Assembly (NCBI GenBank): GCA_033182465.1
Contig: CP137324.1
Span: 2,232,001 to 2,296,000, forward strand
DNA length: 64,000 nucleotides
Direction of reading: 5' to 3'
Origin: Sanghuangporus weigelae
Lineage: Eukaryota > Basidiomycota > Agaricomycetes > Hymenochaetales > Hymenochaetaceae
Part shown: positions 7,801 through 52,296 of the stretch, one piece after another
How the letters are laid out: each line of letters begins with the position of its first letter
How positions within the stretch are numbered: the stretch's first letter is position 1
The notes under the pieces: generated by a model
Seen by the model: the letters and a program-made list of their open reading frames with translations, nothing else
Databases searched by the model: none
What the model was told of the DNA's origin: nothing
Made by a program: the position numbers and the translations under genes

Positions 7801-8134
7801 AATAAATATAATACTATTTGTGTTATGCTGTATTCCGCGAGCTAATATAGAAGTATTACATAAGCCTTGGCATTCATCGCCTCTCCCAGAATATACTTGT
7901 TCATAATAAAACACCCTGGACTGTCTTGCCTTCTCCCTCTTCCCTCTTAAGCCCCCATCAGGCCCTCGTTCCCCTACTTTACATATTCCCGTCTTATAAA
8001 CTGGCGGCATATTCGCGAGTTTCGTGCAGCACTTCCAATCCCGACGAGTTTCGACCTCGCAACACCCGCTGCACACAAATCTCGCGTGTTTTCTTCTCTG
8101 GTGTTGGTAGTGATATCATAATCGATTTCGGACG
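1855..8134. other. 6.3-kb gene-poor stretch, no supportable gene
   Basis: I could not support any gene here. Open frames are short, in mixed orientations, and lack family signatures. The one stretch with some protein-like character is on the minus strand near 3697-3888, with a hydrophobic segment NAMGIVVLLTLIQFIASF followed by possible splice signals near 3480; it weakly recalls helix 4 of basidiomycete DUF6534 membrane proteins but could not be extended. The last 200 bases before 8135 are pyrimidine-rich with a TATAAA-like box near 7996, fitting a promoter and 5' leader for the calcium-pump gene. A short AAGGAAGC-type direct repeat lies near 7004-7025. Confidence 0.5.
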
Positions 8135-12869: not shown

Positions 12870-14810
12870 ACGTTATTATAGTCTTTCTCTGATTACATTC
12901 CGTCCCAACCCGCATCTGCAATACGGTTCTGTCTCCATAACATCCTTTAATTCCTTTCTGGGCGAGATACGTCTGCTCGCATAATCAGTGTCGTACGTCC
13001 TATTCATCCCCGACGACGCACAGTATACTCCGCCAAGGAACGAGGATCACGGAGTGAGCAAGGAAACATCCACAAAAACTTATAGAAACATTGGTGCACG
13101 GAATGTTACTTTCGCTCGCGGAGAAATCAATATGGTGACGCGATGACGACCAAATATTTTGTACATAAGTTTACGATACAACGATACTTTCCCTTTTTAT
13201 ACTCAGCATAAGTTAGACTTCCCTTTTCCCCTCTCTTTTTATACCCTTTTTTCTGCTCTCAAACACGCTTTGGCTCTCCTTCCTCATCATTTATTTCATT
13301 TCGTCATCATACTCAGCACTGGCTGTCTTTCTTTCTCTTTTCCTTCTTCTTTCTCCTTTTCTATTCCTCTCGTTTACTCTTCCCATACTGTTTCCCCATC
13401 CACCTTACGAAACGCCCTGTAGCATGTACGTACGCCCTTTTTCTTCTCGGTCACACATAGTTCCTGCGCTCAATCAGCAGTGCTGTCACGTATCATCGCA
13501 ATGATTTTGCTGAAAAGACGTTACGATCGTTCTACATAGACATAATGAAATGCTTTTTGCTGCTGAAACTTCGATGATCGAGGCGATGACGTAAGGATTG
13601 ATGTGGGATTTTTCCGGCTTAGCTAATTGCATAAAATTCAAGAGTGGCAAGCACTTTTTTTATTACTCGATTTTTCTGCGAAGACAGAGGAGACACCTTC
13701 TCGAGGCAGAATTGCGTTGACAATGAATGCGTACAAGATGATTTCGGTGATGCTCATCGCTTACGATTTAGTGCAACCCTGCTTCGAGAATTTACACTCG
13801 AGTGATCACATCCTCGACGTCTGGTGAACTCACGGGTTATCATAACTAACAGTCTGTTCCGACGCGCCTTTACCGCTACGGCGCTACGACGGAGTCAGAG
13901 AACTCGCCATCACCAATTTTTCTAGAACAACCGCTGAATCAAATTGTTTTACAGGGACCCCAGCTAATATAGTGAGGATACCAAGCGCATGGGAGCGATC
14001 GTTTTTGCGCTAAGAGCAGTGATTCGGACAGTCGGTCTCCAGCGTTACAAGCTGTGAAGACGTTTGCAGGCTCTCGACGTACTGAGAGAATGGCTGCGAT
14101 GTATGAGTGTTGGTTTGATGGTACTAAGATAATTGTGCTCCCTGGAAGTCAGAAGTTCTCAGAACACGCTTAGCCACGAGCCAGACAACAATAGACGCAA
14201 ACATGCGCGCAACACCGTGCTCTGCTTGAGACGCTCAGCGAAGGCAATGGGTGTGGTGAATCGAGCGTGCGACACTGCGACCTGATCATGAGAAATTGAA
14301 TATTCCATTCAAATTGTTTGTCCTTGTTTGTCTCTTCTTCTCACACGACAACCATCACTGACACTGGATTAAGAATCTCGACATCATAAAAGCGATGTGA
14401 ATCGCAGTTAAAGTCGAGCATTTACTAGTAGCCAGGAACCTCCTACCCGGTACGGAGTTTCCGATCGGCACAGTGTTAGAAAACATCCGATGTTGCGGCC
14501 GCAAGTCTCCTTCAAGCAAGCTACTTCCTTCCCGCGATATCTCTCTTCATCGTGTTTTCGCTTTGAACCTCGATATTGACGACGTCGACTTTCGCTCTTT
14601 GTCCTTAAGCCTTCACTGCGACTGACTTGCGTAGCTGGGACTGGGTGTGCGATTTGGACGTAGTAGAAGTTAGTGATAGACAAGTGTAAATTCGGCTTGC
14701 CGTGATCAGTTGTCAGTTTTCCTGTGCACACTGATCATCGAGATGCGGGTACTGATTTGTCCGCGCCTGCTGCATTGTAGTTGCTTTGTCCAGCTGATTT
14801 GCAGTCAGTG
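12870..14810. other. Intergenic region, 1.9 kb
   Basis: This holds the 3' flank of the calcium pump and the upstream region of the acyltransferase-like gene. A pyrimidine-rich tract covers about 13185-13420; its open frame is Ser/Phe/Leu-rich low-complexity sequence and is not credible as a gene. I see nothing else that can be supported. Confidence 0.5.
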
Positions 14811-16858
14811 ATGTCGGCCTCAGAGCTTGCAAATCTGTCCTGGTGCCGATCCGCACGCACGCAAAGCGGCGAGGGGTCTGTTTTTAGGCGCCCGCTCGGC
14901 GCTGGAGAGCTCCGATTCTATTGGGACTCTGTGTTCAACGGTACTGCAGCGACTATTGGTCACTTGGTTCTCGAGGCAGAGTCGGAATACGAGAAGCGGA
15001 TTTTCTGCAAGGAAAATATAGAAACGGCGTGGATGCGATTGAAGCAGCGTTTCCCGCTACTCGCCGCCTCGGTTGACGAGTTGCCCGACTCCAAAGTCGT
15101 CGAATTCGTGCTTGATGAAATGTCGCTGCGCACAGTTCGACATGGGGAAATAAGTTTCCTGGATGATCTCCAGTCAGAGGAGGACGCAACGCGCTTGATC
15201 GATAGGCTGCAGAACGGACCTCCCGTGCTGACGAACGAAATCATAGCAAAACTCATGATTGGGCCTCAGAGAAACAGGCCCCACACATATCATGCAATCA
15301 TTGTCATTTCTCACTGCATCACGGACGGAGTCACCGGCATGACGCTCAAACGAGAACTATGTCAGGAATTGGCAAAGCTATCACAAGACCATATTCTTAA
15401 AAAACCGCTGGAGGAACGGCTATATACTCTTTTGCCAGTAGAGAGTCTTGGCCCTCATAGCAAAGATAATTCATCTCGGAGACGATGGTTCTCAGCGGTG
15501 GCCAAGATAATTTACCAGCTCAGACGGGCAAGATTCAAGGTATTGATGGAGAGATTTACCATTATTCAAGCATTGATGTGTCCCTTTCAGGATGGACATA
15601 CTCTCCCTACAGTTTGCCCTGTCGAGCCTGACGTGCCAGCTCTGTCGCGCACACTGACGCTTCACTTGCCTGCATTACAGACAAGACAAGTTCTCGACAA
15701 ATGCCGCGAACTAGGAATTACCTTTGGAAACGCGCTCCCGGTCCTGAGTCAACTCGCTTTTACGCGTGTACTCTACAGATGTCGCCGTGAAGGCAGCCCA
15801 TTGCGTCGGCGATCGCATGAGGTCAGTGATATCGAATGGGAACATCGTCGTGTTCAACCGATGCACTTTGCTGGTCCGCTGAACCTTCGACCTTATTTGG
15901 ATAGAAGGTGGTACGATGCAGGAGGCACATCGAACGTGTGTATGGCTGTCGGGTCATATCATATTGTCCTTCCTTGCATGCCAACTCCAGAGCCAATTTA
16001 CGAGGAGCTCTCATTTGATTCGGCAATTGTGAAACCACAGTCACTTTCCCACTGGCTCAATGGCCCGCGCCGAGTCAATTGCTACTTGTCTGACGAACCC
16101 GAACTTGACTTTTTCTCGGGCGCAGACTTACCAAGTAAAGCCGATGTTCCAACCTTCTCTTCTCTGTTATCTCCGCGACGATTTTTACATCGCGCACATA
16201 TGGTTTGGGCGCAAAATGCAGCATTCATGCGCCATCCTCTGCTTCACGAACTTCAAGTCACTCACATGCACGAGCTCTGTCGTCAATCTCGGGATGTTGG
16301 ATTAGCTTGGAGGGCCAGACAACTCGGTCTGAAGCAGACTGCGCGTGATATTGCTTCTAAACCGTGTAGTTCTCCTCCTGTCGGAAGCGGGTACGTAATC
16401 TCGAACGGCGGAGCAAGCTTGGGGAATGTGAGTACTTACCGAACCTCATTTTCTCTGCTCATGAACTGCGGCTCACATCAAATGACATATTCCAGAGAGA
16501 CTTGCTACTGCCTCTTCATTATCCATTGTCATCCACCTCTTCTGCTAGGGACAGTGCTCAAGTTCGCCCACGCCTTCACATTCGTGACAACATTATTCAT
16601 CTGCGTTGCCGTCCCGGAGAGCTTTATCTGGGTGCACTCGCAATGCAAGAGCAACTTACGTTTTTCGTTTACGTCGATGCGCGTGTGTATGATCTGAATA
16701 TCGTACAAGACTGGTTGGAGGATGTGCGTGCAGGTACTCTACATTACTTCGGTGATGGTGCGGTCGACGTTACCGAGACGAAATCTTGGAACATGGGTGT
16801 GGTTGCAGGCGCAACTGCGAATCTCGCAGACGATAGGCCTGTGCTGGCGAAACTATAA
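14811..16858 (+). CDS. Stand-alone condensation-domain-like acyltransferase
   Basis: Member of the CoA-dependent acyltransferase / NRPS condensation superfamily without adenylation or carrier domains. Two exons, 14811-16427 and 16496-16858, phase 0, give about 659 aa. The first ATG is at 14811; an upstream in-frame TTG is not a plausible start. The key motif is SHCITDGVTG near residues 165-175, which keeps the H-x3-D-G pattern of the catalytic HHxxxDG motif but with Ser before His. Later blocks GITFGNALPVLSQLAFTRVL and AGPLNLRPYL recur, as I recall them, in fungal proteins of this family. The 3' exon carries GELYLGALAMQEQLTFFVYVD, a beta-strand-rich end typical of the fold. Substrate is unknown: an acyl or acetyl transfer to an alcohol or amine is the family expectation. 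No biosynthetic cluster surrounds it. Confidence 0.78.
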
Positions 16859-18988: not shown

Positions 18989-21900
18989 TCAGAAAAGGTT
19001 GTACACTTTTCCAAGCGGAAGCTTAGTCGCCGGTTCGACATCCATGAGTACGCCATCTGCCGTCACATCGTAACTTTCGGGATCGACCCGCATGTTTGGT
19101 GTAACGTCGTTCCATCTCATGTCCTTCTTCGTGACATTACGACATTTTCGTACAGCCACTGGACGCTTGCGTATTCCATACCTCGAGATGGCACCGACGT
19201 CCAGTGAGATCTGGGAGACGAAGAGGACGGACGTGAGCGCTGCAGCGAGCGGTTCTGAGCCCCACATTGGTTGACCATACACGGGCTGAACAGTCGGGAT
19301 CGAAGCGTTCGCATCTCCCATCTTTATACAATCGAGTCAGTAGCGGCAATCAAATGAAATGTATGCATCTCACTTGCGCCCAAGCAATCACACCCGATTT
19401 CAGAACGACCTCGGGCTTTGCACCGAAGTTCTCCGGTCTCCACAGCACGAGATCGGCAAGCTGGCCTACAGCAACTGATCCTACGACGTGATCAAATCCA
19501 TGAGTAATGGCCCTGCATAAATGTCAACAAATGGCTCCCGAGTCGGTGAAGGTGACTAACGGGTTGACAGTATACTTAGCGATATAGCGCTTGACCCGTC
19601 CGTTATCTTTACCTTCCACATCACCCAACTCCTTGAGAGGTCCGCGAACTTCACGCATTTTGCTTGCTGTGCGCCATGTACGACTGACCACCTCTCCGAC
19701 CCGGCCCATCGCCTGTGAATCGGACGAAATCATGGAAATTGCACCAATATCATGAAGAACATCCTCCGCTGCCACTGTCTCCTTCCGGATACGCGAGTCC
19801 GCGAAAGAAATGTCTTCGGGAATCGATTTGTCCAAATGGTGGCAGACCATGAGCATCTTGGGTGTGATAACATATCAATCAGGAATCACGATAAATGGGA
19901 TATAATATGCTTCCTACATCCAAGTGCTCATCCAGAGTGTTGTTAGTGAATGGTCTCGTAGGATTGGTTGAGGAAGGAAGGACATTATCCTGCCCGCAAA
20001 CAACAATGATGTCTGGTGCATGGCCACCACCTGAGAAGGAATCAAGATTGATATCCGTAAAGTCGCGAAAAATACTTACCAGCTCCTTCCGTATGATACG
20101 TATGGATCGTTCGACCTCCGAATGCGGCGATAGTACCTAAGCAAGACAAAAGTCAGTAATTCTCTATTTGTATGTGATTACCTTACTTTCAACGAAACCA
20201 CTTTCGTTCAGCGTATCTGTGTGTATATTGACCTGTACATCATATTTATCACCAACATCCAGGCAATTCTTGATGACAGCAGGTGTAGATCCCCAATCTT
20301 CGTGAAGTTTCAGGCCCATTGCTCCAGCTTTGACAATATCTTCGAGAGCAGCTGGACCTGCATCGTTCCCTTTTCCAGTGAAGCCGAAGTTCATTGCCAT
20401 TCCATCGGTTGCTGATATCATCAACTGCATATCCCATGGACTCGGCGTGCACGTCGTTGCGCACGTTCCGGCGCTCGGACCTGTACCGCCTCCTACCATC
20501 GTGGTTGTGCCAGCAGCCAGAGCTTCGGTGACCTGCTGAGGACAGATAAAATGTACATGGATGTCGATCGCGCCGGCAGTGACGAGGAGTTTCTCGCCTG
20601 CGACAACTTCAGTGCCTGAACCGACGACCATGTCAGGCGAGACGCCTTCCATGATGTCTGGATTTCCAGCTTTGCCTATGCCACAGATGTATCCATTTTT
20701 AACACCGATGTCAGCCTAAGGAGGCGTTAGGCAAACCTCAAAGTAGAGGCGATTGCGGCAGACCTTATAGATACCAGACCAATCGACAATCAGGCAATTC
20801 GTAATGAGAAGGTCCAAAGTTTCAGTGGACGGACGATTTGTTGCCTGTCCCATTCCTTCACGGATGCTTTTTCCTGCGGAACAACTGTCTGATCTATTTG
20901 ACTCCATAATACTCAGAAACTCGCTTACCTCCACCAAATTTGACTTCGTCTCCATACACAGTCTAATCTTAAGATCAGCGACCTTCCTAACTACAGAACG
21001 TGATGACCATACCAAGTCTTTTTCAACTTCAATCCAGAGCGAAGTGTCGCCAAGACGAACTCTATCTCCGACGGTAGGTCCAAACATTGAGACATATGTT
21101 TCGCGTGCAACAGTCGTGTCCGCAGACACCTCCAACGCACCGGATTCTGGAGCGTGCGCAAAGCCTTTCTGAACTAGTGCCGCGACAATATCTTCAGTTC
21201 TACCAACATCTACAACACCAGAGGCCAGGAGATTTCCTCCAGTGATAATTTTGTGACCAGCAATTGACACCAGGGTTACTGTCTTCGCATCTCCCGGCTC
21301 AAAGCGGACAGCTGTTCCGGCAGGGATATCAAGGCGCTTCCCGTAAGCTTTTCCACGATCAAATACGAGAGCTGGATTGGTCTCGATGAAATGATAATGA
21401 GAGCCAATTTGGATGGGCCTGTCGCCGTTGTTTGTAACTTTGAGTTTGACACGTTTCCTTCCTTTGTTGATCGTGATCTGCTCTTTTTTGACAATAACGG
21501 CACCTGGTGCTTTAGTAGGCTCGTAATCGGAGGCATCAAGGACAGGGAATAGGTCATCAGGGGGAATGGGCAAGAATGAACCATACAAAGCTTCGCTGAG
21601 GTTGCCCGACTCCGAGCAAATAGGATCATGCACGGTCACAAGAAAGACACTAGTTGGACCAAATAGAAATGAGCCCACGAAATATAGGAACGTAGAGTAG
21701 GGACAAGCGCACCCGTCAATGAACGTCCCTTCGACCTGGATCTCGTGCAGAAGTGGGACAACACCGGGAAGGACATGCCTTCTTCCAAGCATCTTCTTCC
21801 CCAGGTCCATCAAATCAGAAACAGAATGAAGACCATCTCGAATGCGCTCCTGCAGTTGTGATGCAATCAATGCAGTCGCCTCTGTCTGATTGAGTCTCAG

Positions 21901-22038
21901 GCCCCGTGCAAGACGCTTCTGAGCGAGAAAGCCCGCCTATCTCATCGTAAATTTAGTTGTAAAATCACGACAAAATTGATTGAATGTGTTTGCCTGGTGA
22001 AGAAAGAGCTTCTCCTGCTCCCTTGGAAGAATGCGCAT
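18989..22038 (-). CDS. URE1: Urease (fused gamma-beta-alpha chain)
   Basis: Nickel enzyme splitting urea to ammonia and carbamate in the cytosol. Eleven exons (21994-22038, 21713-21936, 21013-21649, 20929-20962, 20764-20873, 20187-20715, 20080-20136, 19918-20030, 19561-19856, 19374-19512, 18989-19321) fit in phase and give 838 aa, the usual fungal length. Signatures in order: [16 protein letters not shown] and [17 protein letters not shown] (gamma), [10 protein letters not shown] (beta), [27 protein letters not shown] (Ni ligands), [13 protein letters not shown] (the Lys that is carbamylated), [15 protein letters not shown], and [20 protein letters not shown] (mobile-flap Cys-His). All active-site residues visible are intact, so the enzyme should be functional if the accessory proteins exist elsewhere. 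The first intron (21937-21993) has a GC donor. It is divergent from the MBL-fold gene, 255 bp away, with two GATAAG boxes just upstream. Confidence 0.97.
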
Positions 22039-26875: not shown

Positions 26876-27394
26876 TCCATTTGTCATGGCAAGAGCCGCA
26901 AGAGTAGTGACGGGAACTTCTGAGGATAAAAAAGAAGCTCAGAGTCTCTTATCATAGAACAAGACATGACTCGCCTCGAAAATCCAGAACACAACAAATG
27001 GCAAATAAACGCGATGAAGTTTGAATAGCGACCGTGAAGGAAGTAACGATGAATATGTATCGAATAAAGAAAGGCATGGTCTTTGTCTTGTGCGTCATAA
27101 GAAAAGGTGCGGAACAGTTGAAGAATTCATCAATTCCCACCGTTGAATGTGACTATTAGTGTGCACTGCAAGGCCGTTTGCCTCCTTTCAAAAGAACTAC
27201 TCAATGAACATACAGTATCTACAGAATTGCGAGGGATCCATTGATACCGGGAGTTACAGTAAGCTCTGCAAAACCATGGAAACGACCTGTAGCGCAATGC
27301 AGAAGTGAATGCGAAGAAACATAAATATAGAATAAAAATAACAATGAATATAGAACAATGGATGACCGCATCACAAAAAGTACAAATAACACTA
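26876..27394. other. Downstream flank of NWD-A
   Basis: No gene is seen. The stretch 27225-27365 resembles 33385-33530, the corresponding flank of NWD-B, which supports the tandem-duplication reading. Confidence 0.5.
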
Positions 27395-30300
27395 TCATAT
27401 CGAAGTTTGCTTGGAATGGCCTTTCGCCCAGTTCTCTCCTAGCGGGGAATTCAGTAAATCCAGCTTCGTCGAAAACTTGCAATTGAAAACAGCCTTATCT
27501 CGGGTCCACCATAGCGTTTGGCGCATATCCTCCGGTATCCATGTCAGCAACTCGCCTCCTTCGCCTTTCACCCAGCCATCTTTTGACAGCGTCCAGTTTG
27601 AGAGTGCACGTTGTCTGGAGGCTGCTGGCCCAGTACCTTGGACATTTGAGCTAGAAAGTGCATCTGCTGAGTGGAACACCGAAGAATCTATCGTGTTCCT
27701 TTTTGCAAGCCTTCCACCGTGTCCTGGAACGATACCTCCACCATCCACATCCCAGATACGAATGTTCTGGTCTCTAGATCCCGACACGACGCGCGTCCCA
27801 CTCGGTGATATTGCGACTGGCCAGACGCTGCCTGTGTGCCCTTTGAGTGGGTCCGAGGCGAGCTCACCAGTGTCGACAACCCAGATGCAAATGGTCGAAT
27901 CTTCGGAGCCTGAGACAACGAATCTGCCATCTGGAGAGAATACAACGGACCCGACGGCCTGCGAGTGTCCTTTGAGTGGCCCCGAGATGAGATTTCCGGT
28001 TTTGGCATCCCAAACACGAATTGTTGCATCGTCAGAACCCGACACGAAGCGCTCGTCCGGACAGAACGCAACCGACCGCACCCGGCTTGTATGCCCCTTG
28101 AGTGGGCCCAGGGCGAGCTCACCATTATCTGCATTCCAGATGCGTATTGTTTTATCATCGGAGCCTGAGACGACACGCTTGCCATCTGGTGAGATTGCCA
28201 CCGAATGGACTTTGTCTGTGTGCGCCGCGAACGGACCCGATATAAGACTGCCATTCTCAGCATCCCAGACGTTAATACGCCCATTACTGAGGCCTGATGC
28301 GATGCGTTTGCCGTCGGTAGAGACTGCAATTGACAGGACGCTGGTTCTATACCTCTTGAGTGGCCCCAACATGAGCTCGCCACTATCAGCATCCCAGATG
28401 CGAATAGTGCCATCCAAAGAGCCTGAGAGGATGCTTTTCCCGTCTGGCGAGAATAATACTGAACTGACACTCTGTGTGTGACCCTCGAAAGGACCAGTAA
28501 GATGCCTGCCGCTGTCGGCGTCCCAAACACGGACCGTTTTATCATCGGAGCCTGAAACGACACGTTTCCCGTCAGGAGACAACGCGACCGATCTAACCCA
28601 GTCTGTGTGCACCTCGAATACGCCCGATGCGACATTGATACCTCCCACGTCCCAAACGCGAATAATCTTATCGAATGAACCGGAGATGACCCGTTTCCCG
28701 TCTGGAGTGAATATGACTGAGGTAGTATATGCTATATGCTCCCTGAATGGACCCCAGATACACTGTCCGCTGTCGACATCCCAAACGGCAATTTCACTCC
28801 CGCCTGAAACGACGCGTTTGCCATCCGCTGAGAATGCTATGGAATTGACAAGGCCCATGTCGAAAGGTCCAGAGACGAGTTCGCCGTTGTCAATGTTCCA
28901 AATGCAGATCGCCCCATCTTCAGAACCTGTCGCGAGATACTTCCCGTCTGGCGAGGTAGCCACTGATCTTACATAGCCTACTTTGATCGGAGCCGAGATT
29001 CGCTTCCCGGTACAAGTGTCCGAAATGTGGATTTTCCCTCCACCAGAACCTGACACTACCTGTTTTCTGCCCAAGGAAAAGGCGACGGACGTGACCGCAC
29101 TGTTCACTTCAAGCGGATCCGATATGAGCTCGCCGCTGAAGGCGCTCCAGACACGAACCGTTCGATCGTGAGAACGAGATACTATGTGCTCCCCGTCAGG
29201 AGAGACAGCTATCGAGGTGATCCACCCTGTGTGCCCCTTCAAGGTCTTGATGCACTGGCCTGGAGTCCTTGTTCCTAATATGTCCACTTTGATGACTGGA
29301 TGTGTTACTGAATAGTGATCCGCAATGAGCGATTCCCCCTTCCAAAGAGATATTGCAGATAGATAGATATGGGGAGCACTCTGCGAGATCGGGTACTCGA
29401 AAATACCGACCAGTCTATACGCGGTCCATAGGAAAGACGACAACTCCGAATCAATCGACTATAGGAACATAAGCAAAGGTGTCAAGGACTTGTGAAGAAT
29501 CACTAACCGTGGTCCATGAACCGGTTATATACAGAGCTCGACTTGCAATCCGAATAAAGCATCCAGTTATAGATAGAACTTCGAGCCAGTACAAGAGGTG
29601 AACAGTAGCAAAGACTTTCAACTTGTCCCGCACTGTAGGCAACCTGTCGGACCACTCGAGTTCGTGTAAGTGCGCTGCCCAGAAGCGACAAGCGTAGTTT
29701 AGGTGTGGAGGGATCTTGTCCGTGATACGTTGGTCAAGCTTGGGAACCTCAGAGTTGCGGAAAAACGACGATTCAATATCACACATGTTGAAATGCAGTT
29801 TCTCTGCCATTACGTCGAAACACCGCTCAGTCACAGCTTGCTTCTGCATAACCTCGTCGATGTGCCATGGCTCCTTCCCGGACCTCCCTGATGACAATAG
29901 ATAGTCGGCGAAAGACGCGTGGTACAGTCGAATTGAGCTCCCGGGCTCGTACGAGACTACGGATCGAAGGCGCCTTAATATGAAATCCACGATGTCCTCT
30001 TCAAGGCCGAGAAAGACTTCGATAATGGCATCGGTCATAGCTTCCTTCGAGACTAAGACAAGCCCCAGAATTGCTGTGCCTTCATCCTTTGAGTCTGAAT
30101 TATCCTCCCAGATTCCTGAACCCTTGAGAATCGTGGCATACAAGCTATCGATGCCATTACCGCCTACTGATTGAACATCGTCTGCGAGCTTTTCTAGGCT
30201 CCGTCTCGGATTGACAGCACATTGCACCATTTTAACCGCAGTCGATGCCCAAATAAAAAGTCCGTCCGCGGCATCACAGAGCACTTGGAGACTGTCGTCC

Positions 30301-32315
30301 CAGTCCTTCCCTTTTGGTACTCGTTTGCCGAGTGCCTTTGTCATCTCGTGTCGTATGTAAAGATCAACATCATGCCGACCTTCCTTGGTCCTATGTTCAA
30401 GTTCGATATGTCGAATATAGTCGCTTTGTATCAGATCTTCCATAATATCTCCTTCGGGACGACTGGTTACGAGAATGCGAACTTTCGTTGGGAGTGTCGT
30501 GAAATTTGTCTTGAGCAATTGCAGCAAGTCGCGACGTTGTTCCACACTCCCACATTCGTCCAGTGCATCGAGAATAACGACAATTGGTCCCTCCACCGAA
30601 TTTGCGGTTGCATGGAGAGGTTCTAGAAGCAGCTTTTCAAACTGATTCTTCATCGTGCTACTGCATATTGTCTTGTTTGCTTTGAGGGCTTCAAGGATAT
30701 GCCCCGAAATGGAGGGATGGTGTGACGCAAGTATATATGCGATAGTGCGAACAACGGAACTCGGATCGCTCTTCTCCCGTTCAAAAAACATATGCGCAGG
30801 TGAGCATGTTTTCACGCCGCACTTGTCTGAAGCAGTCACTGCAATGGTGCTTTTTCCGGACCCAGCAGCTCCGGTGAGCCAAAGAATGTTTGGAGACGTC
30901 TCAGAAAAGAGGAACTCAATGATCGGATCCAAGTATTCCTGGCGCGTTCCGTCAAGGCATCGAGGTCGTTCCGATACACGGGAAGGATCCGATTTAGACG
31001 GGTCCAACAATGCTTCCAGTTGTTGCTGTGATTCTGCATCGCAAAAGATCAAGAAAGTGAAGTGCATGACATAATTGAGACGCACTGATATCAAGGACTT
31101 CTTTGGCAGTATTCAAGCCAACGACCGAGTCCAGCTCTTTTCTGAGCTCAACGAAGCGTGTTGAGTAATCACGAATCTTTTGACCGTTGCCTAATTTACT
31201 CATTCGACCTATGATGGAAGGTTTGATTCTCCGTGCAGAGACAGTCGAGGAATGTACCTACCCAGGAAACCATGCTTGGCGTATTCTTGTACAAAACGAG
31301 AGCATTCGGCAGTCTCACTCAATAAATCCTTCACTATGGGCTTCAACATCTTCGTCTTGTTGTCTAAGCCACTCGTCTCTTTCGAGAAATCGAAGGCCGT
31401 TCTCATCTTCCCCACTAGATCGATCAGCTCCGAGTCTGTATGGAGCTGCTGAGATACAAGCTGCAGGGTACGATCAGTCGCGAGAAAAGCAGGTGCCGTG
31501 TATGATATCAATACATACCTTGTATAAAGCCGAGGTCGCTTGCCATGACACGTTGAGGAGAGGGTGTATCTTGATGAGGTATCAGCGGATATTCGGGCTT
31601 GAAAGAAATTGACTGACCTGCGCAATATTATCGACCATATCGATCATCACATCCGCCGCTTCGATAACAGGTCCAATAGCCTCCGCTGCGGAGTTTGTCT
31701 TATTTGTCAGAGCTCGGACTCCTTCCACACTCTTCTCTGCCGTATCGATCTCAATTTTTGCGCGATTCAGTACATCTACACTCTTCAGATGAAGGTAAAT
31801 ACTTCCGGTCGACAATTGCCGTTTGCGACTCGACAGGAAACTTGTCGGTGGAATGAGACTAACTCGGACTATACAGCCACGTTAAGAACAAATTCCGATC
31901 TTAATTCTGATCTCACCATTATCCTTACTAGAATCGACCAACAGCTCGCCGACAATGACTTCGGCCTCGCCAACAAGATCAGGACCGAGCTTTCTCACTT
32001 CTTTCAGACGGATCTTTAAAACGGAAGCTACTTCATGCTTCGAACTACTTTGTACTGAGCAACCAAAGGTATGTATGTCATGCAGGCAGAACTCACAATG
32101 TAAACATGCCATTCCAAACGGGTTCTCCCTCATCATTCAGAATCCCTGTTTTACGGACAGCCTTGGCGAATTTCACTTCCACATAAAACGTGGCATCTTT
32201 TGCGTGATTCGAGGCGCCATGGACGCGGATGACTGCAAGGCTGTCAGTTAGTGAGAGATGGGTTAACAAGGGAACACTGAGGACCTTGCAAGGCAAAGTG
32301 GTTTCGCTCCTCCAT
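27395..32315 (-). CDS. C2-NACHT-WD40 STAND protein (NWD-A)
   Basis: NLR-like signalling NTPase; fungal relatives act in non-self recognition and programmed cell death. Nine exons fit in phase (32285-32315, 32097-32232, 31917-32047, 31618-31868, 31519-31569, 31262-31460, 31086-31208, 29508-31033, 27395-29458), giving 1503 aa. Domains: a C2-like fold at about residues 10-110 (VIRVHGASN, then GILNDEGEPVWNGMF), a helical region to about 305, NACHT with P-loop GAAGSGKST near 362-370 and Walker B VVILDALDEC, then RILVTSRPEGD, and from about residue 880 twelve WD40 repeats of the SVAFSPDGKRVVSGSDD type. The C-terminal DGWVKGEGGELLTWIPEDM tail is seen in many basidiomycete NWD proteins. The exon 2/3 acceptor was chosen on phase and on agreement with NWD-B. 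The frame is open and all NTPase motifs are intact. It lies in direct tandem with NWD-B. Confidence 0.92.
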
Positions 32316-33636
32316 GCTGAGGAAGAGTGCAGGTAAGCTGAGGGTCCACTCCCTGAATGAGCAGTCCCGTCCTTTATCCCAGACACAAATCAAAAGAAGC
32401 ACCTGATTCACGGGATGTCCTCGTGTTTGATAGTGTCATAAGCGTTTTTTCCACACCATCGTACTTCTTTGATTGATGAACCGGATCCAATTCAAGAACA
32501 AACATCTAAGTAGTGCAATTCAGGCGACTGCTATGCACCTGTGAAGCTGAAGTCTAGAGACATCTTGACAATGCCAATAGATAGAGGTAGAATAGACAGG
32601 TTCAGGCTTGGGTTGGGTTGTGGAAGGCAATAAGCACTCAGCATCGACGGAGGGAAAGTTCGAGACAGATTTTACCTGCTACTAAAGTCAGACGGAGCAC
32701 TCATTCAACCAACCGTACGTATGCTCACGTGTACCATATTTCTACAAACAGCACTGCTCTTGTCTTGCAATATGGATTGTTTCCCAGATGAGGTCTACAC
32801 GAGCATCAAGATAAGCTATCGGAGGAGGTGAATATACAACTGTGGGCTAGTCTGCCACACCGGCCGTGAACCGGATACTTCCGAGCCAGACCGGCTGCGA
32901 AAGTAGATTATCGGCAGCTTTGAGAAAATTCCCACATAATATCAGAGATTCAACATTTTCGGAAATCTACAAGGGCGGGCAGCTGTGGAACCGGAACCAC
33001 CATGGGAGATATCACTTTATGACACTGTACCCATACCTGAACAAGGAATTCTTCAAAGCGCTGACAGAACGGTCGCTAGTGGCTCGTACCTGTGGAGGCC
33101 GTGCATAGTCAGATTAGCTTGGAGAGAAGGCAGTTGGGGCGTCTGGTTCACGTCAGTACAGTCGCCATGGCCTCAGTGAGCTGATTTGAGGATGTCGAAT
33201 ATATTATATCATGCCTGATTTCCCCGGGTCGAATTTCAAGCCGTCACGCTATTGCCGAAATACCATCGCTTCTCATGCTGAGTCCGTTTGTTTCTTTCCC
33301 TAACCGAATCATTTATACGTGGACGTATACGCAGTGAAGGATTCTATCTACAGTATATTCGGATTGGCGAACAATCTATCAAAGGGCATCAAACAAAAGC
33401 GTCCGGGGTCAGACGGACTGATCACATTAAGCTCCGCAAAACTAGGAAAACGACTGGTAGAGCAATACGAGATAGAATGCGAAACATAAATAAGGAATAA
33501 AGATAACGTTGAAGATGGACGGGACCAAGGGAACCACGTCGCAAACAATGCTACTAACAGCCAGTGATCTCGTATATTGAACGTTACTTGGGATAACTAG
33601 CAGCCATTGCCAGCCAATAATCTCGCAGATTGAACC
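32316..33636. other. Region between the two NWD genes
   Basis: 32316-32830 is the upstream region of NWD-A and resembles 38831-39285 upstream of NWD-B. 33030-33190 holds the second hydrolase fossil. 33385-33530 resembles the flank downstream of NWD-A. Nothing else is coding as far as I can see. Confidence 0.6.
33030..33190 (+). pseudogene. Fossil of an alpha/beta-hydrolase gene, copy B
   Basis: Only the exon 1 part is recognisable: NKEFFKALTERS near 33039-33075 against NEEFLKALAERP of the intact gene at 45650, followed by a stretch resembling the exon 1/intron 1 region (about 33128-33185). At the DNA level it is closer to the fossil at 26496 than to the intact gene, so the two fossils were most likely copied along with the NWD gene. 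Confidence 0.55.
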
Positions 33637-36600
33637 TCACCTGGGATAGCCTCTCGCCCAGTCCTCACCTACGGGGGAATTCTGTAAATCTAGCTTCATT
33701 GAAAATTGACCGATGAAAGCGGTGTTCCTCAGTCGCCAAAGTGCACCATACATATCCTCCGGTATCCATGTCAGCAACTCGCCTCCTTCACCCTTCACCC
33801 AACCGTCTTCGGATAGCGTCCAGTTCGAGAGCGTGCGTTCCCTAGAGGCTGCTGGGCCAGTGCCTTGGTCATTTGAGCCTGTATGCGTATCTGTTCGGTG
33901 AGACGACGAAGGGGTTGTCACGGCCCTTCTTGCAAGCCTTCCGACGCATCCTGGAACGATGCCTTCATTACCCACATCCCAGACACGAATGGTGTTGTCC
34001 CAAGATCCCGACACGATGCGCGTCCCACACGGCGAGTATGCGACTGACAGGACGTCGTTTGTGTGCCCCTCGAGCGGCCCCAAGACGAGCTCCCCTGTAT
34101 CGACATCCCAAATGCGAACAGTTCTATCCCAGGAGCCTGAGACGATGCACTTGCCATCTGGCGAGAAACAAACTGACGTGACGCTGAATGTATGACCTCT
34201 GAGCGGTCCCGAGATGAGTTTTCCAGTTCCGGCATCCCAAATACGAATTGTGTTATCACGAGAACCCGACACGACGCGTTTCCCGTTCGAGGAGAATGCG
34301 ACTGACCGAACGGCATCCGTGTGCCCCTTGAGCGGTTCCAAGACGAGCTCGCCACTATCCGCATCCCAAATGCAAATCGTCGCATCTAAAGAACCGGATA
34401 CGACATGCTTTCCATCTGGCGAGTATCCCACCGAATAGACAGTGACTGTGTGCCCCTTGAACGGACCCGATACAAGCCTGCCGCTGTCAGCGTCCCGGAT
34501 GCAGATGGTGTTATCGCAGGAGGGTGAGACGAAGTGTTTTCCGTTCGGAGAGAACGCAACGGAAAAGAAGAGGAAACAGTAGCTTTCTGTAGCGCGTTCG
34601 CATCCTGCTCCCTCTACGTGTGCATTAAACGGACCTGCGAGGAGCTCGCCGCTCTCGGCATTCCAAATGCAAATTGTCTCATCATCAGAACCGGATACGA
34701 CATGCTTGCCATCTTGAGAGAACGATACCGACTCGACACTGGATGTGTGCCCCTTGAAAGGACCAGCGAGATGCTTGCCGCTGTCGGCGTCCCAGACACG
34801 GATTGTGTTATCCTCTGAGCCTGAGACGATGCGTTTCCCGTCAGTAGAGAACGCGACTGATCTAACCACTCCTGTGTGCGCCTCGAATGCACGTGACGCG
34901 ATCTCGGTGCTGCCTCCTACATCCCAAATGCGAATAGTACCATCCCATGCACCAGAGATGACGCGTTTACCGTCTGGAGTGAAAATAACTGACATAATAT
35001 CTGACGTGTATTCCCTGACTGGACCCCATATGCACTGTCCACTGTCGACATCCCAGATGGAAATCTCAATCCCGCCTACGACGACGCGTTTCCCGTCCGG
35101 AGAGAATCCGACGGACCAGACAACGCCCACCTCGGAAATCTCCCTTACGAGTTCGCTGCTGTCAACGTTCCAAACGATTATCTTAAATGCAGAACATGTA
35201 GCGAGATGCTTCCCGTCTGGCGAGACAGTCATTGAATCTACTTCGCCTACATTGATCGGAGCTGCGACTCGCTTCCCGGTCCCAGCATCCCAAATTCCAA
35301 TCATGCCATCTTTACAACCTAATACATACTTCCCATCCGGCGTGACTTTGCGGAACTCGACGTCCTTGTCGTCCTCGAACTGCGCGGAGACAAGCTTGCC
35401 GTTCTCGTAATAAAATACCTTCCCGCCAGAGACCGGGATGACACGTTTGCTGTCCGGAGAAAACGCGACCGACGTGACCGAGGATTCACTTGCTTTAAAC
35501 ACAGAAACGGGACTGCCAGTGTCGACATCCCAGACGTGGATCGTCCCTCCTCTGCAACCCGACACGACCTGCTTGCCACCTGCGGAGAACGCGTCGGAGA
35601 GAACCTCACTGCCCACCTCAAACGGACCCGCAATGAGCTCGCCGCTGAAGGCACTCCAGACACGCGTCCCGTCTCTAGAGCCAGATGCGATGCGCTCCCC
35701 GTCACCGGAGACTGCTATCGAATTGACATCGCCGGTGTGCCCCTGCAAGAACTTAATGCACTGGCCTGGTGTCCTTATTCCCAATTTATCTACTTTGACG
35801 ACTGGGTGTGATTTTGAATAATGGTCTGCAATGAGCGATTCGCCTTTCCAAAGGGATATCGCGGATAGATATATATGAGGAGCGCTTTGCGACATCGGAT
35901 ATGCAAAGACACTAGCCAGCCTATACGCTCCCCGAAAAAGAGAATAGATCTCGTCCATTGACTGCAGTAGGGTCAGAAAAATGATAATGTGTATGGACAA
36001 AACACTTACCGACGACCACATACTTGCATTATACAAAGCGCGGATGGCGATGCGAGTAAACTGTCCTGTCAGACTAAGCACCTCAAACCAATACAACAGG
36101 TATTCCTCTCCAAAATTTTTCATACGATCCCTCAACTCGGTCGAAACAGCTAAATTCGATAGCTCGCACAAATGGACAGCCCAGAATCGACATGCATAGT
36201 CCAGGTGCGGATGAATATTATTCGCGATGCGTATCCGCAGATCCGGGGCATCCTCATTGCGGAAGAACGACGATTCAATGTTGCAAATATTGAATCGCAA
36301 GTTCTCTGCCATGATCTCGAAACACCGCTCGGTCACGGCTTGCTTCTGCCTAGCCTCGTAGATGTGCCATGCTTTGTCGCCGGACCTCTCTGGTGATAAC
36401 AGATAGTCCGCGAAAGACGCGTGATGGAGCTGAATAAGCTTTCCGGGCTCGTAAGAAAGCACAGAGCGTATCCGTGACAACGTGAGACCCAGAGTTTCTG
36501 CTTTGAGTCCTAAGAAGGCCATGACGAACTCAGCGGTCATGGCTTCCTTTCCGACTATTATGAGCCCCAGGACCACTTTGAATCGAGACCTCGACTCGGA

Positions 36601-38830
36601 ATCATCCCATGAAATTCCCGAGTTCCTGAGAACCGTCTCATACAGAATATCGATATCGCCCACACCGACCGATTTGATCTCGCTTATCAGGGTTCGTAGC
36701 TTCCGTTGTGGATCATCGAAGGTGCGTACCATCTTGATTGCAGTTGACGCCCAAATGAAGAGCCCGTCTGCTGCATCTGACAGAGCCTTGATCCCATCAT
36801 CCCACACAGGACTCCTTGGCATTCCTTCATCAGCGGTATCATCAGCTAAACTATTCAATTCCTCCATGATATATAGAGTGACATCGTTACGACTCTCCTC
36901 GTTAGCATGCTGCAGTTCAAGCTGACGAATATGGGATCGTGACGACAGACTCCTTGTAATATCGCTCTCTGGACGACTTGTAATAAGAACGCGAACTTTT
37001 GATGGAAGCTTGGGGAAATCAGACTTCATCAAGAATAGCAGCTCTCGTCGCTGTTCCGCACTCCCGCATTCATCCAATGCGTCGAGAATAACGACAATGG
37101 GTCCCGTGATGAAACTTCCAGCGGTGCGAAGCGGTTCTAAAAGCAGCTTCTCATATTGTGTTTTCAACGTGGCGCCGCATATGGTCTTATTAGCTTCGAG
37201 AGCACCGAGGATGTGCGGCGCGATGGAGGGATGGTGTGACGCTAGCATGCACGCGATGGTGCGGATAACGGAGCTCGGATCGCTCTTTTCTCGTTCAAAA
37301 AACATGTAAGCAGGTGAACACCCTCTCGCTCCGCATCTTTCGAATGTGGTCACCGCGATGGTACTTTTTCCTGAGCCGGCAGCTCCGGTGAGCCAAAAGA
37401 CGTTTGGAGACGTTTCAGAGAAGAGAAACTCCATGATCGGATTTAAGTATTCCTGACGCGTTCCGTCAAGACATCGAGGTCGCTTCGACACACTGGAAGC
37501 ATCCGACTTGAAAGGTTCCAGTAACACTTCGAGCTGTTTCTGTGACTCTATTTTGCAAAGGATCAGGAGAGTGAACATATGATATGAATGAAACGTACTG
37601 ATATCAAGGACTTCTTTAGCCGTATTCAAGCCAATGACCGAGTCCAGCTCTTTCCTGAGATCGACGAAGCGTGCTGAATATTCACTGACTTTTCGTCCGC
37701 TACCAAATCTGCTCATTCGACCTATGATGGAAGTTTAGTCTCTACAGAGACAGCCAAGAAACAGACGTACCGAAGAAATTGTGCTCCGTATACTTCTGAA
37801 CAAAGCGAGCGCATTCAGCTGTCTCACCCAATAAAATTTTCAATATGGGCTTCAGTAACTTCGTCTTGTCGTCCAAGTCCCTTGCCTCTGTCGAGAATTT
37901 GAACGCCGCTTGCATTTTGTCCATCAGATCGATCAGTTCCTTGTCCGTATGGAGCTGGTGAGATACGACCTGCGGGGTACAGTTAATCGCGGGCAAGGAT
38001 GTCGGGGAACATATCTGGACGCACCTTGTATAAAGCTGAGGTTGCTTGCCATGACACATTGAAGATGGGATGGATCTTGAAGAGGTATCAGCGGCATTCC
38101 AGGCTTACTATGACAAGCAGACTGACCTTCGCGATAGTATCAACCATCTCGATTATCACATCTGCCGCTTCGATGACTGTTCTGATGATCTCTATGGTGG
38201 ACTCTGTCTTATTTGTCACCGTTCGGATTCGTTCAGCTCCCCTCTCGGCCGTTTCGACCTCGATCTTTGAGCGGTTCAGTGCATCAACTTGCTTGAGATG
38301 AAGGTGAATACTGCCAATCGATGCAATCGACGATAGTCGTTTACGACTTATTCGGAAACTCGTCGGTGCAAAGAGGACAACTCGGGCTAGCCAAGCATAT
38401 CAGTTAAAATTCTAGAATTATCTCCGAACTCACTATTATCCTCACTGGAATTGGCCAGTAGCTCCTCGACATTGACCTCGGCCTGACCAATCAGATCATC
38501 TCGGCCAACCTTTCTCGCTTTCTTAACATACACCTCAAAAACGGCAGATCCTTCGGACTGCAAACTGCTCCACGCTGAGCAACAGAAGAGATGAACTGCG
38601 GACACAACTCACAAGGTCATTGTGTCGTTCCAGGCCGGTTCTCCCTCTTCATTCAGAATCCCCGTCTTGCGGACAGAATTGGCAACTTTCACTTCCACAT
38701 ACAAGCCGGCATCTTTTGCATCACTTGGGACATCGTGGACGCGGATGACTGCAAAAAAGTCAATCAAGGATGATGCACCGACAAGAGAACACTGCGGACC
38801 TTGCAAGGCAAGGTGGGTTTGCTCCTCCAT
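33637..38830 (-). CDS. C2-NACHT-WD40 STAND protein (NWD-B)
   Basis: Tandem paralogue of NWD-A with the same exon structure (38800-38830, 38613-38748, 38434-38564, 38127-38386, 38025-38075, 37771-37969, 37599-37721, 36010-37547, 33637-35961), giving 1597 aa. Domains: C2-like (VIRVHDVPSD ... NEEGEPAWNDTM), helical region, NACHT with P-loop GAAGSGKST near 365-373, Walker B VVILDALDEC near 462-471 and RVLITSRPESD, then fourteen WD40 repeats from about residue 890 and the DGWVKGEGGELLTWIPEDM tail. One repeat carries an extra ten or so residues (EGAGCERATE) before its conserved core. Three introns (38749-38799, 37548-37598, 35962-36009) are multiples of three and stop-free. The frame is open and key NTPase residues are present. 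The two extra repeats suggest repeat gain or loss after duplication. Partner and ligand are unknown. Confidence 0.93.
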
Positions 38831-40973
38831 GCTGAGAAGGATGAGGTTGGGTTCCACTCTTTGAATGAACACTCCCACCTTATATCCTGGAGTTGATCGC
38901 CGTGTTGTCCTCGTGTCTGATACCATCATAAGTGTTCTCCCATGTCATTGTACTTCTTTGATTGATGAACCGGATTCCTTCACAGTCGACATCCAGGTGA
39001 CTATCAGCGACAACTATGCACCTGTGATATGAAGTCTGGAGGTCCCTTGACAATGTCAGTAAATAGAGGTTGAATCAACAGTTTGGGCTTGAGGCCCTTG
39101 AATTGTGGAAAGCAATAAGCAGTCGGCATCAGTAGAGGAAAAGGTCGAGACAATTGTTCCCCGCTTCTTCTTTTTCCTGAGTCAGACGGAGCGGTCATTC
39201 AGTCCAACTCAGTACCTATAACACCGTCCTTCCTTCGCAATATGAATCAATTGTCCACATGAGCATCAAGATACGATACCGCAGAACGCACAGCAGCACA
39301 GCACGCAACCATCTTCGCCGCAGGACACCAGCCTAAAATTGAGCAAAGCTGTACTTCTTTCTGGGAAATTCGCCCGGATTGAATCAGACCTACTTCTAGT
39401 GTTATTGAGGAACACGCGCCACAGAAGTCGGGAATTGCTATAATAAGTACATATTACAGATACAGTTGACTGCCAGTAAAGTACCCATCATGACATGCTC
39501 TGCCTGTTTATCCATCCATTGCCAGAGACACCGCCTTCCTTTCGTCAACCCTAAAGCGTGTATCCATCTTTCGGCGGATATATAGGTGCGCTGTACTGCT
39601 TCGGGAGAAAGACTATTGTAGTTCCAGACACTTGCTCACGAGAGCACCATTTCAGATTCCACATTGCGGTGCATCTGAGAATGCAGTTGGCAGTGCTATG
39701 GTTCACAGGTTGAGACTAATGGTAAAAATAATTGACAGATCGATGAATTGTCCTGTTGAATGGATACAGCTTTTTGCACTGGACCATGCACTTTGGCAAA
39801 GAAATGACCATGTATACAAAGGAGTTCACGCAATGGTATTTACTGTAATATCTGAATGCATATAATTGGAAATCGGTAAGCTGACATCGGTTAAGAATGA
39901 ACATGTTAGACGCACTATAAACACGTAATTCTACTCTGCCTCCCAGTACCTGCAATGTCCTCCGGCCCTTGAATTTTCACCATCAGATTGTGTATACTGT
40001 CTCACGCAGCAATGAGCACCTCCTTCATGGCCATCCTGGCCTCCCTTCTCTTCGACTACTGCTCTAGAAACCAACACGTCCTCAAAGATTCTCGCGAAAG
40101 TTGATGCTTCGACGAGATACTTGTCGAGGCATGGCGATACGTTTCCTCGGGTGGAGGAAGCCTGGTCCTGGATCGGTAGTCCACAGATGCTAAGCCGGCC
40201 CTCTGAGGTGAGCATTTCAGTAGACGAGGTATTTCTTTTACGATGGGTGTTCTGATAGTGGCTCGTTAGAACGTGCGGAAGTACGTAAATTGGCCATCAA
40301 AGTCGACGGTAACAACTGCCATCTGTAGGCTAGGGAATGTCTCACTCTTTTCATTCACGGACAGAAGGAAAAATTGTTTGTGCCTTTCTTGGAACGCTTA
40401 ACCTCTGGAAGTAATTCAGACGTCATGAAATTTGTCCACTTACAGAGCACAAACAAAACGTATAACCAATCAACGTAAACATAACTTCATGATCGCCGCT
40501 GTGAATTCAACCTTTGAGTGAAAGACAGAAAGAAGAGCGCACCTACATGTACTTCGCTTGAATCATCTTACTATCGAAAGCGTCAATATGTCAGTTGATG
40601 ATGCTCCATGCAGGAGGCTCGAGTAATCGTTGACGCACCAGTCTTGATCGCATTTCGCCTCAGCTGCTACGATACAGCACAGCTTTTTCTAAGAAAACAA
40701 GGCCGACCGTTTTCAGAAACCCAAATATCGGCTTTTAGCAAGTCATAACAACCGAAAGCGGTGAGTGATCATAATGAAATAGGGATAACAATAGAAGTCC
40801 GTCGCGCGCGCAAGCCTCGGATGCTTTAGACCACACGACACAAATAGAACCAAACACCTCTTTGGTACCTGTTCAAAACGCGTTCGCTGGGCGCTAGAGA
40901 CCTCAGCATCTCTCTTTGTTACCTCTCATCTCCTCTGCTATAGCAATTCATCTCTGTTGAAATTCCCACCAGC
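38831..40973. other. Intergenic region, 2.1 kb
   Basis: 38831-39285 is the duplicated upstream region of NWD-B. Beyond it I see no supportable gene. A minus-strand open frame with an ATG at 40215 (94 codons, containing LDKYLVEASTFARIFEDVLVS) has some protein-like texture but no family signal and no clear splice partners. Confidence 0.4.
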
Positions 40974-50071: not shown

Positions 50072-52296
50072 CTTGGTGGCAAAGGCCACAGTGACAGGAA
50101 GAGCACCTGGGGCCGACAGGAGATAGGCTGGAAGTTCCAGTGGAAGGATAGAGTCTTGCACAATACACTATATATATATTGAAAGCTCGCAATCTGTAGC
50201 GTAGTTAGCGCAGATGCGCTCGTCTATAGCGTCCATTCCAGACTCCCGCTTCCCACATGACGATTCGCGATAAGCTCCAAGAACTCTGAATGAAAGCCTG
50301 CGAGAAGACGGGAGAAGCGCGAGGATTCGGCGGTAGCCATGGCCCTGGACAAACCATCAACCACTGGCATGTGGACTCGACAAGTTCTGCATGTGTCGAA
50401 ACGGGCGATTCAACTTACATAAAAGCGGCCATTTGCCTTCTGCAATCTGCAATCGGGGCCTTCTTCCCAGGTAAGATATAGAGTCGACGGGTCAACATTG
50501 CTCGGCATCACACGAGGCTATTCATAACGACAGTTTATGTCAAATTCTCCTCATGGGCGAGGTGATGGACCCTGTCTTTATGTAGCCGATGCTTACTTCA
50601 ATTTGATTTCCCGGATGACACTGAATACTGGCACGGTGATTGATGCGGAACGGTCGTGCTAGACGGTCCGCCGTTTGATAACGGGTAGACGAGAAAACGC
50701 CAAAAATAACAAGGTTCTATGATTTGGGTGAATTTTCGTTCCCGTATGCATGGAAGGACCTCAGCAAGGCACACCGTCCAGAGAGCCAACTCCCACATGG
50801 AGAAACGTGCTTTAGGTGAATTATCAAGTAACGCTATGTAGGCAGCACCAGATGGACGCGTTGCTCGATCTCCATATATTTCGGCTAAGTCTAGCTTCTT
50901 ATCTCGTTTGTCAGGAAGAAAAAAGAAACTTCCCGTCCATTACACCGCCTCGTTCGGATAAATATCCTCAGTAGCCACTTGACGTTGCCGTTTTTGCGAC
51001 ACCGTAATGCAGGTACCATCATTGAGCGATAAGTAACAGTAATAGCGCAACAGGGAGCCACGCTTGACAATACACACCGGCAGCGAGGGCCGGTTGAAAA
51101 CGTTGCAGCAGTAGTACGGGCATGCAGTCGCACGATCGCATGCATATGGTTCTATGTTCTTGCCAAGAAAACACGGATCCTCTCCCGCATGGAAATGGAT
51201 ACATAGCGAAGACACGTTATTTCGTCCAGAGCTTCTACAATAAGCACCGACCGCAGAAAGGGAATGTGGAGAAACTCACAACGCACTTCAAAATACTTGC
51301 CAAGAGACAAGTAAGGATGATGAGAAGATGAGAAAACTACAGCCAGAAAAGATTGAATTTTGTTTTGCGACGGACTCTATGACACGTGTTACTCTTCTGA
51401 CAGTTTCTCATTTCCCTCATTTCCCAATAAGGTGATTAGCTTCAAGGAATTTCCTTGTTTTTTCGTCCGGGAGCAAATTTGCTTCACCGATCGATGTCTG
51501 CCCATCTATCTAGCATCTAGGGAAAACGATGCGAGGCCGTCCATATAGGCAACTCGGAGAGAAAGAGTGCCCATCATTCGAGTTTATTTCGCCTTGTCAG
51601 AGTCCAAAGATCTGGCAGATTACTAAAGCAAGGGTCGTGAGAGTGTCCAAGCAGAAGCTGAGGAGCGAAAGGCTTTGTTATTAATGTTGAGATATGCAAA
51701 GCTTTCGGAAAAGATACGCGTACAGACACTCACAGGCAGCAGAGGGCATCAGGCAGTTTGAAGGGAAGTAATGTGGTTTACGATATGGCGTCGGTGATTC
51801 CGTTGCTACTTATACTATTCAAAAAGCGAGTCGGGTCATTTTGGTCGCGGTCCCGCAGTCAGTAGCCCAATCACGAAATCGCTGCATAAGTAAAAACTGC
51901 GACAATGTACATAAACGGAAGTTTTTATTGCATTCGTACACCTTAGAATAGCAGTACACGAATTTCGGTTTGTGAATGAGTGCGACCATGGAAAGATGTT
52001 GCTGTTAGTAGATATGATTCCATCCGATTCCAGATAAGTCCGGCTTAGTAGAGCCTAGAGGATGAGAGTTGGGGCGAACGTAAGATGAACAAAATAAGGA
52101 CAGGCCTAGGTAAAGGGAGATTAAGAACGGAAAAGGTCGAAAAGAAAAACTACAGCCCGCATATGTACACATGCATGTACGTGCAAATTAAGGATAAGCG
52201 TTAGAAAATGAGGAACAAAACCGAACAAGAACGGAACGAAGAGGCGAAAATAAACGAAGATCCGGGTAATTTCTGGTAGCGGTTAATGTAGTCGGG
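50072..52296. other. Intergenic region, 2.2 kb
   Basis: Upstream region of the OPT gene and 3' flank of the Ser/Thr-rich gene. No gene is firmly supported. A minus-strand frame at 50940-51215 reads Cys-rich (CFLGKNIEPYACDRATACPYYCC) but lacks an ATG, a signal peptide and clear splice partners. Confidence 0.45.

Follow-up and report, generated by a model that had tools for sequence, protein, structure and literature searches.

Two tandem genes, here called A and B, occupy positions 27395 to 38830 of a 64,000-nucleotide stretch of DNA (the window, C7:2232001-2296000) and encode proteins in which a C2 domain is followed by a helical region, a NACHT domain and an array of WD40 repeats. We consider it likely that both are recognition receptors of the NOD-like receptor (NLR; STAND) class, with a front end that would work at membranes. 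The family to which they belong carries a measurable signature of recognition, namely position-specific diversification within the WD40 repeat and purifying selection elsewhere. A recognition role had been proposed for the pair in a reading made from the sequence alone (the sequence-only reading), and that proposal gains indirect support from diversifying selection at WD40 positions equivalent to those of Podospora receptors and from module exchange between paralogues. Candidate contact residues, a point of exchange and a naturally stand-alone front end can now be named, which opens the way to assays of ligand binding, of allele diversity and of activity at membranes or in cell death.

Diversifying selection in the WD40 repeats

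The pair does not stand out as a special locus within its genome: a search of 33.87 Mb in 13 contigs gave at least 39 NACHT matches. We modelled 21 paralogue loci beside A and B, mostly best matches to A and hence a sample chosen for A-likeness. In all 23 genes the alignment to A or B begins in the C2 region (at residue 19 or 23 for L019 and L027), crosses NACHT and reaches the point where the WD40 array opens; 18 of the genes exceed 1400 residues without a stop. WD40 codons were placed on a 43-position repeat register. Changes per position were counted in two clades (13 genes), and a codon model was applied to 8 pairs in which each of 16 genes was used once, L014 and L030 being omitted. The data are thus divergence among paralogues of one genome, not polymorphism, and the branch lengths, too, were estimated from these data. 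By maximum likelihood over the 8 pairs, the ratio of nonsynonymous (dN) to synonymous (dS) rates, omega, was 0.49 for WD40, 0.39 for the C-terminal tail, 0.34 for C2, 0.23 for the helical region and 0.21 for NACHT; pairwise counts pointed in the same direction, with WD40 above NACHT in 13 of 13 pairs.

Within the repeat, nonsynonymous change reached the mean synonymous level solely at positions 4, 5, 7, 23 and 25 (13 genes). In the codon model (8 pairs) omega was 2.1 at position 4, 4.5 at 5, 2.9 at 7, 5.0 at 23 and 1.6 at 25; position 3 had a value of 1.2, which was not significant, and the remaining 37 positions fell below 1. A fit of position 4 with class-specific codon frequencies (8 pairs) hit its bound, with an omega of 54.6 (p = 1), and was not used. 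Positions 5, 7, 23 and 25 pooled, with dS free, gave an omega of 3.19 in the 8 pairs (n = 417 codon pairs, p = 3.2e-10) and of 3.77 in 4 close pairs (n = 219, p = 1.7e-8); six core positions that we picked gave 0.16. Taken singly with dS free, positions 5 (p = 1.3e-5) and 23 (p = 9.8e-5) survived correction for 43 positions. Among codons with a single difference in the close pairs, 70 changes at the four positions were nonsynonymous and 4 synonymous (neutral nonsynonymous expectation 0.70; binomial p = 1.8e-7), compared with 252 and 337 at the other 38 positions, 4 being set aside with the four. For the five-position set, position 4 included, omega was above 1 in all 13 pairs, with p < 0.001 in 12, in a test whose pairs share sequences and whose positions were chosen on these data.

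Repeat codons 7, 9, 25 and 27 of Podospora HET-D/E are under diversifying selection, flank the conserved codons 8 and 26 and were modelled on the interaction face, according to the available parts of Paoletti et al. 2007 (PMC1805685). Shifted by 2, these codons are our positions 5, 7, 23 and 25, which flank conserved positions 6 and 24, and the contact surface appears to be the same in both families. That this surface changes faster than chance in the family of A and B, the rest being conserved, suggests that changing partners are recognised. If the host is a basidiomycete, a recognition mode common to two phyla is suggested, since the family studied here and that of Podospora diversify at the same four WD40 positions while their arrays evolve in different ways. 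Our literature search brought up no paper that we recognised as testing selection in the C2 class of NLRs.

Exchange of modules between paralogues

WD40 arrays have moved between paralogues. The clearest mosaic is L011 (C7:2.48 Mb), which joins a B-type C2 and NACHT to an A-type WD40 array. In trees of the C2 and NACHT parts L011 grouped with B, the alternative A+L011 being rejected by the approximately unbiased (AU) test (7.9e-5 and 1.6e-6), and in the WD40 tree it grouped with A, B+L011 being rejected (5e-8); trees of the helical and tail parts favoured neither grouping. The best single breakpoint fell at coding sequence (CDS) positions 2538-2544 of A, about 70 nt into exon 9, in a conserved linker before the WD40 array; the equivalent site in A is 35887..35893 (minus strand). 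Of 1113 informative sites, 790 agree with this breakpoint, a fit reached by 0 of 10000 permutations. Much of CDS 901-1400 is also A-like, and more than one exchange is therefore probable. B and L011 also have about 1.1 kb of upstream DNA in common (88-96%). A second case came from the C6 cluster of nine genes (outgroup A), where the NACHT and WD40 trees mutually rejected each other (AU 1.5e-7 and 5.0e-5).

This exchange of whole arrays differs from the constant exchange of repeats in Podospora. Homogenisation of repeats in the HNWD style was not seen: within a protein, the mean repeat identity is 0.47 in both A and B. A simple recent tandem duplication was likewise rejected as the origin of the pair: NACHT identity is 62% between A and B versus 77% between B and L011, which lies 220 kb away. 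The neighbours L012 and L013 (C7:1.90-1.92 Mb) are 96-100% identical at +1300 to +2050, in the NACHT region, and 97% at +550, and 78-91% per bin elsewhere from the start codon on, a pattern that suggests recent gene conversion. Five modelled genes (L013, L016, L023, L029 and L031) are shortened or contain stops in our models, and L033 (C7:2470500-2473500) is a broken C2-NACHT-WD40 relative in which the front end and pieces of NACHT and WD40 are recognisable and other parts are missing.

Domain organisation of A and B

The sequence-only reading had described two intact tandem STAND genes, and its coordinates proved exact, with the start of A at 38830 and the end of B at 27395. Both genes lie on the minus strand, are intact and have 9 exons each; hand-built models, read on that strand, each splice into a single open frame, with 16 introns in all (8 per gene), every one GT-AG and 47-58 nt long. 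A spliced protein-to-genome aligner given A residues 1-905 recovered the start of B and all 8 of its introns. Profile searches with hidden Markov models put C2 over the Pfam cut-off in both proteins and matched NACHT and WD40. With a NACHT domain that bears nucleotide-binding motifs, an N-terminal C2 and a C-terminal WD40 array, A and B have the make-up of fungal NLR (STAND) proteins.

Gene A (38830-33637) encodes 1597 residues. Exons 1-3 (38434..38830) carry the C2 domain (PF00168, residues 6-98, E 7.9e-13), exons 4-7 (37599..38386) the possibly Goodbye-like helical region at about residues 100-311, and exon 8 (36010..37547) NACHT and a downstream helical part (NPHP3_N 1.3e-26, NACHT 1.9e-10). 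They are followed by 14 WD40 repeats (residues 897-1492, 33955..35742) and a tail (33640..33954) that has no Pfam match and of which about the last 70 residues are conserved across the family. Gene B (32315-27395) has the same order over 1502 residues: C2 in exons 1-3 (31917..32315; PF00168, residues 12-93, E 2.3e-8), the helical region in exons 4-7 (31086..31868, from splicing and the alignment of family models), NACHT in exon 8 (29508..31033, from the genome NACHT search, splicing and Pfam), 12 WD40 repeats (27728..29236) and a tail. The tails after the array (33640-33954 in A, 27398-27727 in B) have a conserved end, GWVKGEGGELLTWIPEDM.

NPHP3_N was matched in both proteins; NACHT passed the Pfam cut-off in A, and the NACHT stretch of B passed it in the genome search (47.1 bits). 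The stretches GAAGSGKS and ILDALDE, read by eye, are intact in A and B, and we take them to be the P-loop and a Walker B-like motif. The Pfam WD40 model matched at E 4e-110 in A and 1.1e-105 in B, in 12 and 11 stretches respectively, and a repeat model built from the family itself reproduced the 14 and 12 repeats counted by the sequence-only reading. By order and best match, B is without the blades that correspond to A repeats 3 and 4; were the array two seven-bladed propellers, the first propeller of B would be five-bladed, which may affect its function. An AlphaFold model of the NACHT exon 8 from two sequences had a mean predicted local distance difference test score (pLDDT) of 37 and was not used. 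For WD40 exon 9 the mean was 66, with most of the array at 70-95, and Foldseek TM-scores were 0.25-0.47 among the 50 matches listed; this predicted model supports the blades and not their overall arrangement.

The front end

C2 was the sole significant Pfam match in residues 1-340 of A, a DGKD_4H match being insignificant, and the only one in B. No HET domain appeared among the Pfam hits listed for these residues in either protein. Among eight other paralogues scanned, C2 was over the Pfam cut-off in L022, L027, L011 and L028. In the PDB, the C2 domain was closest in sequence to the plant C2 protein At3g55470 (E 2.1e-5), whose loop 3 has acidic residues (DHDTFSSDD); A has KKARKVGRDD and B has LKEVRKLGPD at this place. 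Judged by the calcium ligands of C2 domains, lipid binding by the C2 of A and B is probably independent of calcium. The helical region is conserved across 21 aligned family models. Weak Pfam matches to it, all under cut-off, were found in the 14 members scanned: DUF7708 in three (best E 2e-4), RPW8 in one (0.0021) and Goodbye in one (0.01), the last from a member that is neither A nor B. A genome search for Goodbye (PF17109) gave 0 matches, in a run with no positive control and with introns ignored that does not establish absence. An NCBIfam scan gave no match over cut-off that we saw (best E 0.014), and a dynein chain, the best hit in a PDB profile search (E 0.059), was treated as chance.

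A candidate gene for the front end alone lies at L034 (C7:2078300-2081300; model 185-1362), which has six introns, placed by an aligner that allows GT-AG introns only, and encodes C2 and the helical region before a stop at 290 residues, with no NACHT or WD40. In the 5 kb beyond it there was no NACHT-WD40 remnant at E < 1 save one 29-residue stretch (E 0.018). Its helical part is 37-49% identical to those of 12 relatives (dN 0.42-0.54), and dS, estimable for 7 of the 12, is 1.9-3.2; because the frame has stayed open after such divergence, L034 points to long constraint rather than recent truncation. On this gene model the front end may be able to act by itself, and L034 is a possible separate effector.

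Weighing a recognition role

Several results weigh against a recognition role for A and B. The codon model ignores recombination, which is present. Taken singly with dS free, positions 3 (p = 0.018) and 7 (p = 0.019) were nominally significant and positions 25 (p = 0.053) and 4 (p = 0.14) were not significant; L017-L018 was the sole pair of the 13 without significance for the five-position set (p = 0.09). The fast positions had been seen in these data before they were compared with the Podospora codons. In contrast to Podospora incompatibility genes, high identity between the repeats of one protein was not seen (the maximum is 0.68 for A, 0.71 for B and 0.79 over 18 proteins), and repeat number is nearly fixed, at 14 in 16 of 18 family proteins, 13 in L025 and 12 in B. 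In the front end, C2 fell under the Pfam cut-off in the other four of the eight further paralogues (L014, L017, L018 and L025; E 0.0022 to 0.02), and in some family members the domain is thus degenerate or has diverged. The helical region gave no Pfam match over cut-off among the 14 members scanned and no significant relative in the PDB profile search, so that an executor step for this region rests on analogy.

Among other explanations, it is conceivable, though doubtful, that A and B are allorecognition (heterokaryon incompatibility) receptors like HET-D/E rather than parasite sensors, their ligand being a polymorphic self protein. The four corresponding repeat positions do diversify as in the HET-D/E family. 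However, besides the lack of a listed HET match in residues 1-340, a genome search for HET (PF06985) gave 0 matches, in a run with no positive control and with introns ignored that does not establish absence. Podospora HNWD proteins have HET where A and B have their C2-helical front, and the internal identity of HNWD-type repeats is over 85% in the available parts of PMC4986451. The repeats of A and B, 0.47 identical on average, belong to a family whose repeat number hardly varies among paralogues, and the size of that family would fit broad immunity at least equally well. With neither a HET match nor highly identical repeats, A and B are not HNWD members; the likeness lies in the joining of NACHT to WD40 and in the selected positions.

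We think it improbable that the excess at the fast positions is an artefact, whether of relaxed constraint, of a misaligned register or of shuffling among non-orthologous repeats. Modules do recombine, and the best-matching repeat had an equal index in only 524 of 1680 comparisons. Relaxation, however, would bring omega near 1, and about 3 was observed; positions 13-17 and 32-36, which we take to be loops, stayed below 0.7. Nor is the synonymous rate out of line, dS at the four positions being 0.97 of that of the array in the 8 pairs and 0.89 in the 4 close pairs. The two halves of the array, tested apart, gave omegas of 3.21 and 3.16 at these positions, and the close pair A-L011 gave 4.66 for the five-position set.

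That A and B are scaffold or signalling ATPases of development or trafficking, using C2 for vesicle targeting and taking no part in recognition or cell death, would suit the plant C2 protein as best match, and NACHT-WD40 and C2 parts are by themselves no proof of immunity, but we regard it as very improbable for a family that is large, partly broken, recombining and diversifying at positions that match a contact surface.

Relation to known systems and proposed mechanism

The architecture of A and B is already in print as a large Agaricomycete NLR class, of which they are probably new members. Many Agaricomycete NLR N-termini carry a double domain of C2 and Goodbye-like type in the available parts of PMC9815663, and a C2 class is described in those of PMC4986451. 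The term 'little-studied' used in the sequence-only reading is fair for function and not for architecture. In the same portions of these sources, cell-death activity of the Goodbye-like domain is not firmly established, its function being called open in 2022 (PMC9815663), and about 15% of basidiomycete NLR N-termini were annotated in a 2014 survey (PMC4986451). A and B share with this class the order of C2, helical region and NACHT and the large paralogous family (PMC9815663, PMC4986451, as available), and differ from it in that Goodbye is weakly reproduced, in the one member of 14.

Two further comparisons concern A and B as STAND proteins. They resemble Apaf-1 in combining a STAND ATPase with WD40 repeats. 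In Apaf-1 two WD40 propellers hold the ATPase inactive and a CARD stands at the N-terminus, where A and B have the C2-helical front; the WD40 exon 9 model, of modest confidence, matched 3sfz (Apaf-1) with low TM-scores of 0.37 and 0.28. A and B resemble the four-helix membrane executors HeLo, MLKL and RPW8 in having helical content ahead of the nucleotide-binding oligomerisation domain, and one of the 14 paralogues gave the weak RPW8 match; unlike these executors, A and B have a C2 domain first and a helical region without a match over cut-off.

If A and B are recognition receptors, the WD40 array would bind a variable protein ligand, which may be non-self, come from a parasite or be a guarded protein of the host. 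Once bound, the ligand would free NACHT for nucleotide-driven oligomerisation, which in turn would cluster the C2-helical front end at a membrane. There C2 would provide lipid binding and the helical region might execute permeabilisation, cell death or signalling; we infer a cell-death role for A and B by analogy. New specificities would arise from point changes at the contact positions and from receptor arrays being exchanged via the conserved linker. Only tentatively do we put forward a fuller account, in which the immune-type receptor repertoire of an Agaricomycete-type fungus diversifies by swaps of whole 14-repeat cassettes via that linker, selection acts on the same contact residues as in ascomycete incompatibility receptors, and L034 serves as a separate membrane executor or adaptor.

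Surroundings in the window

The sequence-only reading had placed the pair in an island of gene fossils. For NLR remnants in the window this was not borne out, as none of the 18 pieces that tblastn matched to A or B (E 1e-3) lay outside 27300-38900. There are 32 open frames of at least 150 residues outside the pair; of the 20 scanned, 11 had no Pfam match and 9 did, and the latter (P-type cation ATPase, urease, metallo-beta-lactamase fold, DUF4112 and OPT transporter pieces) are ordinary genes. Two long open frames, at 14781-16694 (plus strand, 638 residues) and 52191-53870 (minus strand, 560 residues), had no Pfam match at E 0.01. ARAGORN found no tRNA gene in the window, and TRF found one short tandem repeat. 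The urease and P-type cation ATPase gene pieces, at 20167-21936 (minus strand) and 8114-12866 (plus strand) respectively, lie at lower coordinates than the NLR pair.

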